A stretch of DNA of 36,375 nucleotides, taken from assembly GCA_021846285.1 (NCBI GenBank), contig JAJZCB010000034.1, forward strand, positions 1-36,375, in the 5' to 3' direction. This DNA is from Bacillota bacterium. Its GTDB lineage: Bacteria; Bacillota; Bacilli; Alicyclobacillales; SLC66. How positions within the stretch are numbered: position 1 is the stretch's first letter; each line of letters begins with the position of its first letter. A program made the translations under genes and the position numbers. Below, one piece after another: positions 5,549 through 34,902 of the stretch. The notes beneath the pieces were generated by a model. It searched no databases. It was given only the letters and a program-made list of their open reading frames with translations, and had not been told where the DNA came from.

Positions 5549-8500
5549 ATGGACGACAGCACAATCTACAGACCGAGGAACCGAGTGCGCTTTGTGACGG
5601 CTTCCAGTCTGTTTGACGGACACGACGCTTCGATCAACATCATGCGCCGACTCCTGCAAGGATGCGGCGCAGAAGTTGTACACCTGGGTCACAACCGCTC
5701 CGTGCAGACTATTGTACGGACCGCGATCGAAGAGGACGCGCAGGGCATAGCCGTAAGTTCGTATCAGGGCGGGCATGTGGAGTTTTTCAAGTATATGATC
5801 GACATGTTGCGCGAGCGTGGAGCGGCTCACATCAAAGTCTTCGGCGGCGGCGGCGGCGTGATTGTGCCGCAGGAAATCGCGGAACTGCACGCCTATGGCG
5901 TTACTCGCATCTACTCGCCCGATGATGGTCGCGTGCTGGGTTTGCAAGGCATGATCAATGACATGGTGCGCTCGTGCGACAGTCCTACGCCAAAGACGGC
6001 GGCGCAGGAATTCCTTTCGTCGGACCGTCCACTGAGGACAACGGATACCCGAACGATCGCGGAATTGGTGACACTTCTGGAGGAACTCGTAGAACAGGGC
6101 CAGCCGACCGCAGACGTTCTGACGCGATTGTCGGCAGGCGGCGCCAAACACGCGCATTTGGCTGATCAGGCGAACATTCGCGTGGGGGATGGACCGGACA
6201 TAACAGCCACGGCGGTCATGATGCGGGAGCTGCCCGCGCCCGCTGGCGCCGTCGGTATTGTGGTCGGAATCACAGGCACCGGCGGAGCTGGCAAGAGTTC
6301 TTTGACGGATGAACTGGTGCGCCGCTTCTTACGCGATTTTGATGACAAAACTGTCGCGATCGTGTCGATTGATCCTTCCAAGCAAAAGACGGGGGGAGCC
6401 CTTCTCGGCGACCGCATACGGATGAATTCCATTTACCACTCGCGCGCATTCATGCGCTCGCTTGCCACACGGACTTCACGCTCGGAACTGTCGCTCGCGG
6501 TGCAGGAAGCCATTGCCATCTTGCGCGCAGCGCAATTTGATCTGATTCTCGTTGAGACAAGCGGAATTGGTCAGGGAGACGCTGCGATCGCGGAGATCGC
6601 GGATGTCAGCCTATACGTCATGACGAGCGAATACGGTGCGCCTTCGCAACTCGAGAAGATCGATATGCTCGATTACGCGGATCTCGTGGCGATCAACAAG
6701 TTCGATCGCAAGGGCTCGCTTGACGCATTGCGACACGTGCGAAAACAGCTCCAGAGAAATCACAACCGTTTTGCTGATGCTCTTGACGCGATGCCTGTAT
6801 ACGGAACCATCGCAAGTCAGTTCCACGACGTTGGAACAAACGCGCTCTACCAGGCGCTGATCGCGTGCATCAATGACAAGACTGACGCCGGCTGGACCAC
6901 GCGAGGCGGTCTGTCGCAAGGACTGCCGGAGAAACCATCCATCATTCCGGCCGATCGCATCCATTATCTGCTGGATGTCACGCAAACGGTCCGACGATAC
7001 CACAGATTCGTAGAACAGCAAGCCTCTCTAGCACAGCAGTGGTACCAGGTTGAAGGGGCTCTTGCCGCCGTGAAAGACCAGGGAGACCAAAGAACAGAGG
7101 TTGCTGAAGCTCTATCGGTCCTCCTGCATGGCGTCAAAGAGCAGATGAACCCGGAGACTCGCGAACTGCTGGAAGGGTTTTCGGATCTCGTAGAACGCTA
7201 TACGCAACCCGAATTGATTTCACGCGTTCGGGATCGGGAACTGCGCACTCCGCTCTATGTGCGATCGCTGTCAGGCCTCGATATTCCTAAAATCGCGCTG
7301 CCGCGTCTGCACGATTATGGGGACATCCTGCGCTATCTGATGCTGGAAAACGTTCCTGGGGAATTCCCTTATACGGCGGGGGTGTTTCCGCTCAAGCGGA
7401 CAGAAGAAGAGCCGCGTCGGCAGTTCGCCGGAGAGGGAACGCCAGAACGGACCAATCGACGGTTTCACTATCTGTCCTCCGGCGACAGCGCCAAGCGTCT
7501 CTCCACGGCGTTTGACAGTGTGACTCTGTACGGTGAAGACCCCGATTATCGACCGGACATCTACGGGAAGATTGGAGAGAGCGGTGTATCCATATGCACA
7601 CTGGATGACATGGAGGCGCTCTATGCGGGTTTTGACCTGATCAATCCCGCCACATCGGTCTCTATGACGATCAATGGACCCGCGCCGATCATCCTTGCCA
7701 TGTTTCTGAATACGGCCATCAACCAGCAGTTGCATCAGGCCGCCGCCAAAAATGACAGTCCACTGTCGCCAGAAAAACGCGCCGAGATTGCGCGGCGGAC
7801 GCTGCAAGTCGTGCGCGGCACAGTGCAGGCGGACATTCTCAAAGAGGATCAGGGCCAAAACACGTGTATCTTCTCCACGGAATTTGCTCTGCGTATGATG
7901 GGCGACATGCAACAGTTCTTTATCGAGCACAGTGTCCGCAACTACTATTCCGTCTCTATCAGCGGCTACCATATCGCCGAAGCGGGCGCGAACCCGATTT
8001 CGCAACTGGCCTTCACGCTGTCGAATGCGTTCACTTATGTCGAATACTATCTGAGCCGCGGCATGCACATCGACGAGTTTGCGCCCAATCTCTCCTTCTT
8101 TTTTAGCAACGGGATGGATCCGGAGTACACGGTGATGGGCAGAGTGGCGCGCCGCATCTGGGCGATTGCGATGAAACATCTGTACGGCGCGGGCGACCGC
8201 AGTCAGAAGTTAAAGTACCACATTCAAACCTCGGGGCGTTCCCTGCATGCTCAGGAGGTGGATTTCAACGACATTCGGACGACGCTTCAGGCGCTGCTCG
8301 CCATTTACGACAACTGCAACTCGTTGCACACAAACGCGTATGACGAGGCTGTCACAACGCCCACAGAGCAGTCGGTGCGCAGAGCCATGGCGATCCAGAT
8401 GATCATCAATCGCGAGTTTGGCCTTACGAAAAACGAGAATCCTCTGCAAGGCGCCTACATTACTGAGGAACTCACCAATTTGGTGGAACAGGCCGTTCTG

Positions 8501-8923
8501 GATGAGTTTTTGCGCATCCACGACCGCGGCGGCGTGCTGGGCGCCATGGAGACACAGTATCAGCGAAGCAAAATCCAGGAAGAGTCACTCTATTATGAGA
8601 CGCTAAAACATTCTGGAGAACTGCCCATCATCGGGGTGAACACCTATCTCAACCCGCAAACAGAGGACAGTGGCTATCAGGCGCCGCAATTGGAGCTGGC
8701 CCGCGCGACCATCGAGGAAAAGGAGCATCAGATCCAAGGGTTGCGCCACTTTCAGAAAGAGCATCAGCAGGAGGCCGAACCCGCATTGCAGCGCCTGCAG
8801 GACGTTGCCCAGCACGGGGGCAATATTTTCGCCGAACTCATGGAGACTGTCAAAGTCGCCAGTTTGGGGCAGATCACAGCGGCGCTCTACGAGGTCGGCG
8901 GACAGTACCGCCGCAACATGTGA
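5549..8923 (+). CDS. icmF: Fused isobutyryl-CoA mutase IcmF (B12 domain, G-protein chaperone, mutase)
   Basis: Adenosylcobalamin-dependent mutase of 1124 residues that interconverts isobutyryl-CoA and n-butyryl-CoA. Some members also act on isovaleryl- or pivalyl-CoA. Domain order is typical of IcmF. First is the B12-binding Rossmann domain with the base-off motif FDGHDAS (His25). A MeaB-like GTPase follows, with P-loop [12 protein letters not shown] (about residue 240) and NKFD (about 381). Last is the large catalytic barrel. In the barrel, GVFPLKR carries Phe613 where methylmalonyl-CoA mutase has Tyr (GPYPTMY), a substitution typical of isobutyryl-type mutases. ATG 5549 has GAGGGG 8 bases upstream. 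A GTG at 5540 would overlap the tetR stop. The neighbours (TetR, FadE-like, thiolase) point to branched or short acyl-CoA metabolism. Confidence 0.95.
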
Positions 8924-9127: not shown

Positions 9128-9250
9128 GGCAACCAGCGACAGCCGCCTCAGTGAGGCGGCAACCAGCGACAGCCGCCTCAGTGAGGCGGCAACCAGCGAC
9201 AGCCGCCTCAGTGAGGCGGCAACCAGCGACAGCCGCCTCACTGAGGCGGC
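9128..9250. repeat. Four tandem 30-bp repeats, each containing a 9-bp-stem hairpin
   Basis: Four back-to-back 30-bp units of the form GGC-AACCAGCGACA-GCCGCCTCAGTGAGGC run without interruption. Each junction reads GCCGCCTCAGTGAGGCGGC, a hairpin with two 9-base arms and a single central base. The first three are identical. The last has C instead of G at the centre, which keeps the symmetry. The 11-base segment between hairpins is identical in all copies, so this is a tandem repeat and not a CRISPR array. Confidence 0.9.
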
Positions 9251-9272
9251 AGCCTACTTCAGGAATGGTCCA

Positions 9273-33306: not shown

Positions 33307-33324
33307 CGACAGAGATATCACATA

Positions 33325-33429
33325 GCCGAATCGCGTAAGCGTACGGAGGAACCAGGTCAGCTTTGGGGTGAACTCCAGAAAGTGGAGCGGGCAACCTTCG
33401 CCCGAACCCGTCAGCTAACTCCGGAGGCG
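33325..33429 (+). promoter_or_regulatory. Cyclic-di-AMP riboswitch (ydaO-yuaA type)
   Basis: The conserved elements of the ydaO aptamer occur in order: AATCGCGTAAGC (33329-33340), GGAGGAACC (33345-33353), TTGGGGTGAA (33363-33372), a variable GTGGAGCGGGC stem, and the diagnostic CCGAACCCGTCAGCTAAC (33402-33419). The class binds c-di-AMP and usually turns genes off when the ligand is abundant. It ends a few bases before the ribosome binding site (33431), and no terminator follows. Control is therefore probably at translation initiation, possibly through the self-complementary CTCCGGAG next to the ribosome binding site. Confidence 0.92.
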
Positions 33430-33441
33430 CGGGAGGAAATA

Positions 33442-34239
33442 ATGAAACATATTCTGTCTTCGCCTGTTGCGACATTCGTCGCAGGATTGGCTGCTTCTGC
33501 AGCAAGCATACTTGTGCCGTCCGTGAACGCGTTCGCCGCCACATTGCCGCCAGCCCCCTACACTGTCCGAGCGGGAGACACCGTCTATAAACTGGCGGAT
33601 ATGGCGAATGTGGGGATTCCTGATTTTTGCAGTGTCAACCATCTGTCGACATCGTCGACAATTTCGGTGGGTGAACAGGTGGCGATGCCGTTTCTCTATC
33701 GAGTGGACTCTGGAGATTCTCTGTGGTACATTGCCCGCAAGTATAATACAACTGTGGCTGCCACTGAGCAGTTGAACGGACTGTCATCCAATCTCATTCG
33801 CCCCAATCAAACCCTTCTTCTTGCGCGTGGCAGCGTAGGCGCCGCCACATGGGGGAACGCAGCCTCTCCGCGCCTGCTGGCTGGCGCGGCAACCACAATG
33901 GCGGCTGCCGGCAACAGCCGCCGCGCAGTGTTAACTATGATGGCCACGTCATACGACGCCTCAGTCGCTTCCAATGGACCTTGGGGCGCCGTGAATTACT
34001 TCGGCCAGCCACTGCAATTTGGCGATGTGGCTGTCGATCCGTCCGTGATTCCTCTGGGCACTCGGCTGTTCATTTCCGGATACAATGATCCGGCATTGCC
34101 CAAGGGTGGATTTTATGCGATCGCCAATGATGTGGGTGGATCCATTCACGGCGATCGCATCGACATTTTTCTCCCGACCGCGTCACAGGCGGACCAATTT
34201 GGTATGGAACACGTCCATGTTCAGGTCGTTTCCCGCTGA
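33442..34239 (+). CDS. Secreted protein with two LysM domains and a 3D domain, c-di-AMP controlled
   Basis: A 265-residue exported wall-remodelling protein. The signal peptide is MKHILSSPVATFVAGLAASA ... AFA. LysM 1 is YTVRAGDTVYKLADMANVGI and LysM 2 is YRVDSGDSLWYIARKYNTTV. A C-terminal 3D domain follows (AVDPSVIPLGTRLFI ... AIANDVGGSIHGDRIDIFLP) with the key aspartates intact, giving a YocH-like architecture. ATG 33442 follows GGGAGGA directly after the riboswitch. An open frame reaching back to 33133 is only chance read-through of the riboswitch. The riboswitch implies wall turnover is tuned to osmotic or potassium status via c-di-AMP. Confidence 0.93.
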   Translation: MKHILSSPVATFVAGLAASAASILVPSVNAFAATLPPAPYTVRAGDTVYKLADMANVGIPDFCSVNHLSTSSTISVGEQVAMPFLYRVDSGDSLWYIARKYNTTVAATEQLNGLSSNLIRPNQTLLLARGSVGAATWGNAASPRLLAGAATTMAAAGNSRRAVLTMMATSYDASVASNGPWGAVNYFGQPLQFGDVAVDPSVIPLGTRLFISGYNDPALPKGGFYAIANDVGGSIHGDRIDIFLPTASQADQFGMEHVHVQVVSR

Positions 34240-34361
34240 ATGTTTCCCGGCTGTCTGTGTATTGTTCATCTGTGATGACCTGCAGTCCATAATTCGGTAT
34301 ACTGGATGTGCGCCATAGCGACGCGGATACAGTTTGGCACTGAGAGGTAAGGAGGCGGATC

Positions 34362-34847
34362 ATGGGCTTGCTGGCAGGACAAGCTGCGCCGGACTTTACG
34401 CTAAAGGCGACCGGGGATCAGACAGAAGTGCATCTTGCAGGGTTGCTGGGACTGCCTGTGGTGCTGTTCTTCTACCCGAAGGACGACACACCCGGCTGAA
34501 CCAAAGAGGCCAACGAGTTTCAGGCTCTGCACGATGAGTATGAAAAACTCGGCGCCAAGGTGCTAGGGCTTAGCACCGACAGTATCGAATCACACCAGAA
34601 ATTCGTCAGGAAATATGGACTCACCATGCCTTTGCTGTCAGATCCAGACGCTGTGGTTTGCCAACAGTACGGCGTCTACAAAAAGAAGAGCATGTATGGA
34701 AAGACGTATATGGGTATTGAACGCACAACGTTCGTGATTGATCAGCAGGGACTGATCAAGAGAGTGTATCCGAAGGTTAAGGTGGAAGGTCACGCGGCGC
34801 AGGTGCTTGCCGACCTGAAAGAATCACTCTGGATCGAACCTGTTTAA
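34362..34847 (+). CDS. BCP/PrxQ-type peroxiredoxin with UGA at the catalytic position (probable selenoprotein)
   Basis: Thiol-peroxidase-family gene of 161 codons, the normal length. ATG 34362 has an excellent ribosome binding site, TAAGGAGG. The reading frame is intact and conserved end to end except for TGA at 34497-34499 (codon 46). The context is YPKDDTPG-UGA-TKEANEF, so UGA stands exactly at the peroxidatic cysteine. Other catalytic residues are kept (Pro39, Thr43, Arg121 in GIERTTFVID). The usual resolving Cys five residues later is Asn51, and the only other cysteine is Cys100. Selenocysteine insertion is the most economical reading because known peroxiredoxin selenoproteins carry Sec at this site. 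A nonsense mutation or a base error is the alternative. Stem-loops that could act as SECIS follow the UGA. Confidence 0.8.
34505..34551 (+). promoter_or_regulatory. Candidate bacterial SECIS structures downstream of the UGA
   Basis: Two mutually exclusive hairpins are visible. Short form: AGAGGCC (34505-34511, one bulged G) with GGCTCT (34523-34528) and an 11-base loop. Long form: CGAGTTT (34514-34520) with AAACTCG (34545-34551), inner GCTC (34524-34527) with GAGT (34536-34539), and apical loop TGCACGAT. The long form places the loop 28 bases after the UGA with G at its second position, as in typical bacterial SECIS elements. Pairing was checked by eye only. Confidence 0.4.
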
Positions 34848-34851
34848 ATCG

Positions 34852-34896
34852 CAACTCCCAAGACGAAACTGATAGCAGTTCCGTTCGAGGGAGTTG
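34852..34896 (+). promoter_or_regulatory. Stem-loop that can cover the next gene's ribosome binding site
   Basis: CAACTCCC (34852-34859) is complementary to GGGAGTTG (34889-34896), which contains most of the GAGGGAG ribosome binding site of the following gene. An inner hairpin AACTG-ATAG-CAGTT (34867-34880) stacks inside. The structure would lower initiation or couple it to upstream translation. Confidence 0.45.
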
Positions 34897-34902
34897 TCTG
34901 TT

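Follow-up and report, generated by a model that had tools for sequence, protein, structure and literature searches.

The stretch of DNA analysed here (hereafter the window; 36,375 nucleotides of a Bacillota contig) carries a gene that almost certainly encodes a selenocysteine (Sec)-containing peroxiredoxin of the PrxQ/BCP type, in which an in-frame TGA occupies the codon of the peroxidatic cysteine. The frame, its conservation, the genes for Sec machinery in the host genome, the association with the Sec trait and the predicted fold were all seen directly; from them we infer that Sec is inserted at the TGA, that a hairpin downstream of it is functional, that the product is a peroxidase and what its reductant is likely to be. 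The initial annotation had put the gene forward as a candidate selenoprotein, a proposal supported by the location of the TGA at the peroxidatic codon, by the presence of selA, selB and two selD genes, and by the occurrence of the TGA only in genomes that have the Sec trait.

The features of the gene are collected in Table 1. Read-through translation bore out the claim that its 161-codon frame is open apart from a single TGA: this codon, in the context YPKDDTPG-U-TKEANEF, is the sole in-frame stop, and it falls, as had been stated, exactly at the peroxidatic Cys, residue 46 lying over the Cys of 'tpgct' in Xanthomonas BCP/PrxQ. Besides position 46, the only Cys position in the protein is C100. 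The truncated downstream frame anticipated under the ordinary code is also there; ordinary annotation would cut the gene short and lose its active site, and would do the same to the Sec-containing relatives. ARAGORN found no tRNA within the window. Elsewhere in the window, a c-di-AMP riboswitch (ydaO/yuaA leader, 89 bits) is found at 33314-33444, directly 5′ of a gene for a LysM/3D-domain protein (33442-34239), and a short intergenic tandem repeat lies at about 9150-9260, where RRQPATAASV was seen by eye to be repeated in one frame.

Table 1. Features at and around the peroxiredoxin gene, in window coordinates.
Feature	Position	Strand	Basis
Shine-Dalgarno AAGGAGG, 6 nt 5′ of ATG 34362	34349..34355	+	inspection of the sequence
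Peroxiredoxin gene of prxQ/bcp type; 161 codons, codon 46 read as Sec, TAA stop	34362..34847	+	frame read-through, family profiles, PDB alignment, predicted model
TGA within the frame at the peroxidatic codon (TPG-U-T), interpreted as selenocysteine	34497..34499	+	translation, homologue codons
Candidate SECIS hairpin of bacterial type; its apical loop, UGCACGAU, spans 34528-34535	34514..34551	+	MFE fold
Truncated frame, GTG start, 95 aa, expected call of an ordinary gene finder	34560..34847	+	ORF list, ordinary code
Terminator-like stem-loop 3′ of the gene	34875..34897	+	consensus match only; 1 found vs 0.5 expected in shuffles

The read-through protein matches the Pfam AhpC-TSA family (PF00578) with 142.8 bits (cut-off 26) and narrowly misses the NCBIfam thiol peroxidase model NF006960 (135.5 bits, cut-off 140). 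Two NCBIfam equivalogs were not reached, namely NF053650 (144.8 bits, cut-off 260) and the PrxU model NF040737 (59.5 bits, cut-off 270). PrxU is a Sec peroxiredoxin, and we take NF040737 to cover the same family as the Sec peroxiredoxin of Eubacterium acidaminophilum; by this model PrxU is a different subfamily from the window protein. The closest solved relatives by sequence are Xanthomonas BCP chains, residue 46 of the query being placed over their Cys. The AlphaFold model of the window protein (pLDDT 95.7) has the predicted fold of PrxQ/BCP, with TM-scores of 0.85-0.92 against the 12 best PDB chains, and the 14 best PDB matches belong either to BCP/PrxQ entries or to one from Burkholderia that bears the name alkyl hydroperoxide reductase. 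Xanthomonas campestris PrxQ/BCP (PDB 5IIZ, 3GKN) is alike in fold (TM-score 0.88, 43-44% identity) and shares the active-site motif, but it is Cys-based where the window gene has TGA, and its Cys84 (mutant entries C48S, C84S) aligns with Val in the window protein.

The active-site codon was read codon by codon in 110 loci, 30 from relatives and 80 from named records, a few of them being one sequence met twice. It was TGA in 15 loci and TGC or TGT in 95; the TGA was present in 12 of the 30 loci from relatives and in three of the 80 from named records, these three being Bacillota bacterium JA6.bin5 (L071), Ferroacidibacillus organovorans SLC66 (L072) and Alicyclobacillus sp. SP_1 (L117). Six further relatives, chosen since a TGA had already been flagged there, all have it at the same codon. 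Because relatives and named records share the TGA, and the rest have TGC or TGT, its presence at this codon is not chance. The initial annotation had asked for homologues to be aligned at codon 46 and had named unrelated stops and frameshifts in them as evidence against a selenoprotein; none was seen, every one of the 110 loci having TGA, TGC or TGT.

In total, 18 of the 58 genomes have the TGA, and the proteins concerned share 51-83% identity with that of the window. The congener G002 (81% identity) retains both the TGA and the frame; none of the extra stops flagged in G002, in the other congener (G001) and in G014 comes before query codon 153, which places them at the end of the gene. Comparison of the window gene with that of G002 gave dN 0.080 and dS 0.439 in the region 3′ of the TGA (dN/dS about 0.18), and dN 0.116 and dS 0.612 in the region 5′ of it. 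Purifying selection acts on the frame before the TGA as well as after it. The argument that a nonsense mutation is improbable here, and that the downstream frame has not decayed, is upheld by this dN/dS and by the recurrence of the TGA among the genomes.

An ortholog of PrxQ was present in 58 of 61 genomes; the other three (G010, G015, G055), which have a weak best match and no full ortholog, were dropped from the following test. The TGA occurs in 18 of 29 Sec+ genomes and in none of the 29 others (Fisher p = 1.5e-7, kinship ignored). Genomes were scored as Sec+ on the basis of a full or near-full SelA match or a tRNA-Sec match, G041 through tRNA-Sec alone, while weak SelA matches were scored as no SelA, even though some exceed Pfam's cut-off (e.g. 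58.5 bits in G029, 22-25 bits in others). In genomes without a codon-read locus, absence of the TGA was taken from the internal-stop count of the ortholog match. Cys forms are found in G003, G009 and G011 despite the presence of SelA and tRNA-Sec.

The host assembly (G000; 3.89 Mb, 164 contigs, 98.2% complete) contains selA (505.6 bits) and selB (384.4 bits), both without stops, and two selD genes (400.7 and 351.3 bits), each with one in-frame TGA (KSG-U-GCK and GAG-U-ACK). The selD pair is located at L016, within 7179-8654, and at L017, 2366-3535. The search of the genome for sel genes that the initial annotation had advised therefore succeeded for selA, selB and selD; selC, the gene for tRNA-Sec, was not found in the draft, though tRNA-Sec with anticodon tca is present in both congeners. 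Covariance model, pattern search and BLAST all failed to find tRNA-Sec in the 164 contigs. The sole RF01852 match above cut-off in this assembly (49.7 bits, cut-off 47) is a tRNA-Ser according to ARAGORN, which found no tRNA in any of the 12 places returned by the pattern search. A 121-base tRNA-Sec query from G001 gave only chance matches in the host assembly and strong matches in the control genomes G001, G002 and G005; a 1401-base stretch of G001 that includes part of the tRNA-Sec region had no match there either, in a comparison run free of controls. In G013, in which the TGA and SelA are present, tRNA-Sec was likewise not found.

The tRNA-Sec adjoins a phage-integrase gene in G002 and G006 (L177, L178) and a transposase fragment in G001 (L175); in G002 it also lies near an IstB gene. 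It may be that tRNA-Sec serves as an integration site in the family to which the window belongs. A gap in the assembly is the likely cause of the missing tRNA-Sec in the host.

Other readings of the gene were considered in the light of these data. One stop codon formally interrupts the frame, as would be expected of a pseudogene in which a nonsense mutation had arisen at codon 46 and the downstream frame had still to decay; the sharing of the TGA by 18 of 58 genomes, across proteins as diverged as those described above, the low dN/dS after the TGA relative to G002 and the association of the TGA with the Sec trait make this very improbable. An error of sequencing or assembly, with TGA read in place of TGC or TGT, might be entertained for a draft of 164 contigs, but its probability is negligible when the same TGA is present in separately named records, including those of Ferroacidibacillus organovorans SLC66 and Alicyclobacillus sp. 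SP_1. It could also be supposed that the ribosome terminates after residue 45 and re-initiates at GTG 34560, yielding two short products, the second a peroxiredoxin devoid of its active site. The 95-residue frame that this calls for does exist; nevertheless, a strong Shine-Dalgarno sequence precedes 34362 and none is visible in the sequence before 34560, the stretch between the TGA and the GTG is conserved in 26 aligned proteins, and Cys homologues read through the site. We consider such a restart scarcely credible.

The failure to find tRNA-Sec raises another alternative, in which the strain has lost this tRNA and the gene is a recent relic whose translation now ends at the UGA. The query that performs strongly on G001, G002 and G005 and gives only chance matches in the host favours such a loss, as does the similar outcome in the TGA-bearing G013. 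Against it, selA and selB are free of stops and the two selD genes have only their TGA, the draft is in 164 contigs, and the tRNA-Sec of the congeners lies beside mobile-element genes, where drafts presumably often break. Loss of tRNA-Sec is very unlikely, and a Sec-containing peroxiredoxin is the reading that we retain.

The sequence that follows the TGA is predicted to fold into a hairpin whose upper stem has 4 bp and whose 8-nt apical loop starts 28 nt after the UGA and has G as its second base. This predicted fold fits the bacterial SECIS (bSECIS) model as set out in the relevant section of PMC13188914, which specifies a loop of 3-9 nt, an upper stem of 4-16 bp, a G in the first two loop positions and a distance of 16-37 nt from the UGA. 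The hairpin was more stable than its synonymous-codon shuffles in each of three runs (z -2.97, -2.75 and -2.70); against dinucleotide-preserving shuffles, none of three cuts of a wider stretch was unusually stable (z -0.86, 0.11 and -0.82). When identical stretches were merged, the mean z against synonymous shuffles was -1.57 for 16 distinct Sec sequences, -1.17 for 18 Cys sequences from relatives (p 0.04) and 0.02 for 76 others; the Cys homologues of relatives, as these values show, also fold somewhat better than their shuffles.

Over the 18 codons that follow the active-site codon, synonymous change was 0.42 in nine Sec pairs, versus 0.65 elsewhere in the gene, and 0.60 in nine Cys pairs, versus 0.60 elsewhere; these values come from few and overlapping pairs among which single pairs go either way. 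Contrary cases are the Sec pair L044/L045 (0.83 versus 0.74) and the Cys pair L065/L066, which shows the same dip. In a pairing test biased toward the hairpin, the structure having been derived from one of the tested sequences, 69.7% of hairpin cells were paired as against 65.9% in shuffles (five of 500 shuffles reached 69.7%) and a maximum of 52.9% when the structure was slid. Changes on both sides of a pair were seen in two of the 13 hairpin pairs, below the shuffle mean of 3.1, the RNAalifold consensus was poor (-0.73 kcal/mol), and the early loop G is missing from the apical loops of several relatives. Support is thus mixed, and the hairpin is a probable SECIS element. Among the four Cys forms read in the window's family, only that of G017 (L050) has a strong hairpin whose loop is similarly placed (z -3.7), perhaps as a remnant.

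We envisage that SelA and SelD would make Sec on tRNA-Sec, that SelB, guided by the downstream hairpin, would deliver it at the UGA, and that the ribosome would read past this codon to complete a 161-residue enzyme. The selenolate of Sec46 would then attack H2O2 or an organic hydroperoxide, and the resulting selenenic acid would probably be reduced by an external thiol, perhaps thioredoxin or bacillithiol. A resolving Cys located five residues after the peroxidatic Cys, in helix alpha2, is a feature of one PrxQ subtype only. Reduction by an external thiol is probable because this helix position is Asn51 in the window protein, which thus has no helix resolving Cys; many Cys homologues also have no Cys there. 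C100 is almost always present, in Sec forms as in Cys forms, but the Sec form L048 has Ala in its place. The window protein would appear to be a 1-Sec peroxidase that depends on an external thiol for its reduction.

Across the order, a Cys five residues on is present in one of 17 Sec forms as compared with 13 of 18 Cys forms (Fisher 8e-5, as a plain count). In the other family of the order the figures are one of six Sec forms and 13 of 14 Cys forms (p 0.002); in the window's family this Cys is absent from all 11 Sec forms and all four Cys forms. Correction for kinship left no support for a link between Sec and loss of the helix Cys, there being three independent pairs on supported branches and six on all branches (sign test p 1). 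It is conceivable, although we hold it to be rather doubtful, that in this order Sec goes with loss of the helix resolving Cys, that the Sec forms are 1-Sec peroxidases which have shed the intramolecular disulfide step, and that the lineage has alternated repeatedly between Sec and Cys without giving up the Sec trait. If true, this would amount to a natural experiment on why a peroxidase uses selenium.

In order to follow Sec and Cys forms, a tree was built of 40 PrxQ proteins, 35 from the order and five outgroup rows picked by hand from named Cys loci. L072 and L179 (the same sequences as L052 and L117), L183 (a near-copy of L181) and the Cys form of G004 were omitted, and L112 and L182 were trimmed at the N-terminus. 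Six changes between Sec and Cys are needed on this tree, and at least three are forced by well-supported branches. The window's family accounts for 15 rows, 11 of them Sec, and a supported clade of Cys forms (G003, G011 and G017) is nested among Sec forms, which points most simply to a change from Sec to Cys. Full SelA and tRNA-Sec persist in G003 and G011; in G017, which is 60% complete, neither was found. A 2006 survey gives five Cys-to-Sec conversions for peroxiredoxins and none in the opposite direction; for four other families it describes Sec-to-Cys changes, in some cases with vestiges of SECIS-like structures (PMC1794560). This small enzyme, with its solved homologues, occurs in Sec and Cys versions that are close relatives, some of the Cys versions in genomes with SelA and tRNA-Sec, and would allow a direct test of what Sec adds in a peroxidase. 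The four Cys forms read in the window's family (L050, L054, L057 and L058) carry TSGC, whereas TPGU is found in every Sec form read; Cys in the active site is accompanied by Ser in place of Pro two residues earlier.

Peroxiredoxins with Sec are a class already known. A review lists Sec peroxiredoxin as COG1225 (Bcp) with the motif TxxU (PMC9312934), and 43 Sec peroxiredoxin genes are entered under COG1225 in the Sargasso Sea data (PMC1088965). The window gene is an addition to this class, because it shares with the published COG1225/TxxU proteins the domain (PF00578), the TxxU motif (TPGU), Sec (here predicted) at the peroxidatic position and Cys homologues at the same site. The hosts named in the pertinent parts of those two papers do not include this order of Alicyclobacillus relatives, and the lack of a Cys five residues on in 16 of the 17 Sec forms of the tree set is a feature of the window's order. 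PMC7409299 reports up-regulation of PrxU, which it calls a Sec peroxiredoxin, when the acidophile Sulfobacillus thermotolerans grows on ore and is under oxidative stress; the likeness to the window protein is one of description only. In the open-licence literature, none of the matches listed dealt, by title or abstract, with selenoproteins of this order, and the main texts of three papers searched by word do not mention Alicyclobacill-.

The expectation that a Sec peroxiredoxin would be notable for a Bacillales-type genome holds in part. Three selenoproteins were counted in Firmicutes/Bacillales in the relevant table of the 2006 survey (PMC1794560) and Sec forms of COG1225 were in print, at least in the portions cited above (PMC9312934, PMC1088965), which weakens it; what is less expected is the conservation of the Sec form in this Bacillota order, together with the Cys clade nested in Sec forms and the near-general lack of the helix resolving Cys in the latter.

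TGA codons at peroxidatic positions were also seen in other peroxiredoxin genes. The host genome has a second, distinct peroxiredoxin locus (L185, contig C134, 425-922) with TGA at the peroxidatic codon (DWTPV-U-GAQ), for which no NCBIfam cut-off was reached and which adds to the case for Sec in the window gene; a TGA of this type is also present in loci of seven relatives (L186-L192). A third, AhpC-like group has TGA at the peroxidatic codon in the context DFTFV-U-PTE (DFSFV in L198) and comprises L193, L194, L195, L196 and L198, from five relatives in the order but outside the window's family. In G014, a peroxiredoxin-like frame (L197, contig C71) has a TGA in the context RGTW-U-PNC, at an aligned position that differs from that of the other peroxiredoxins.
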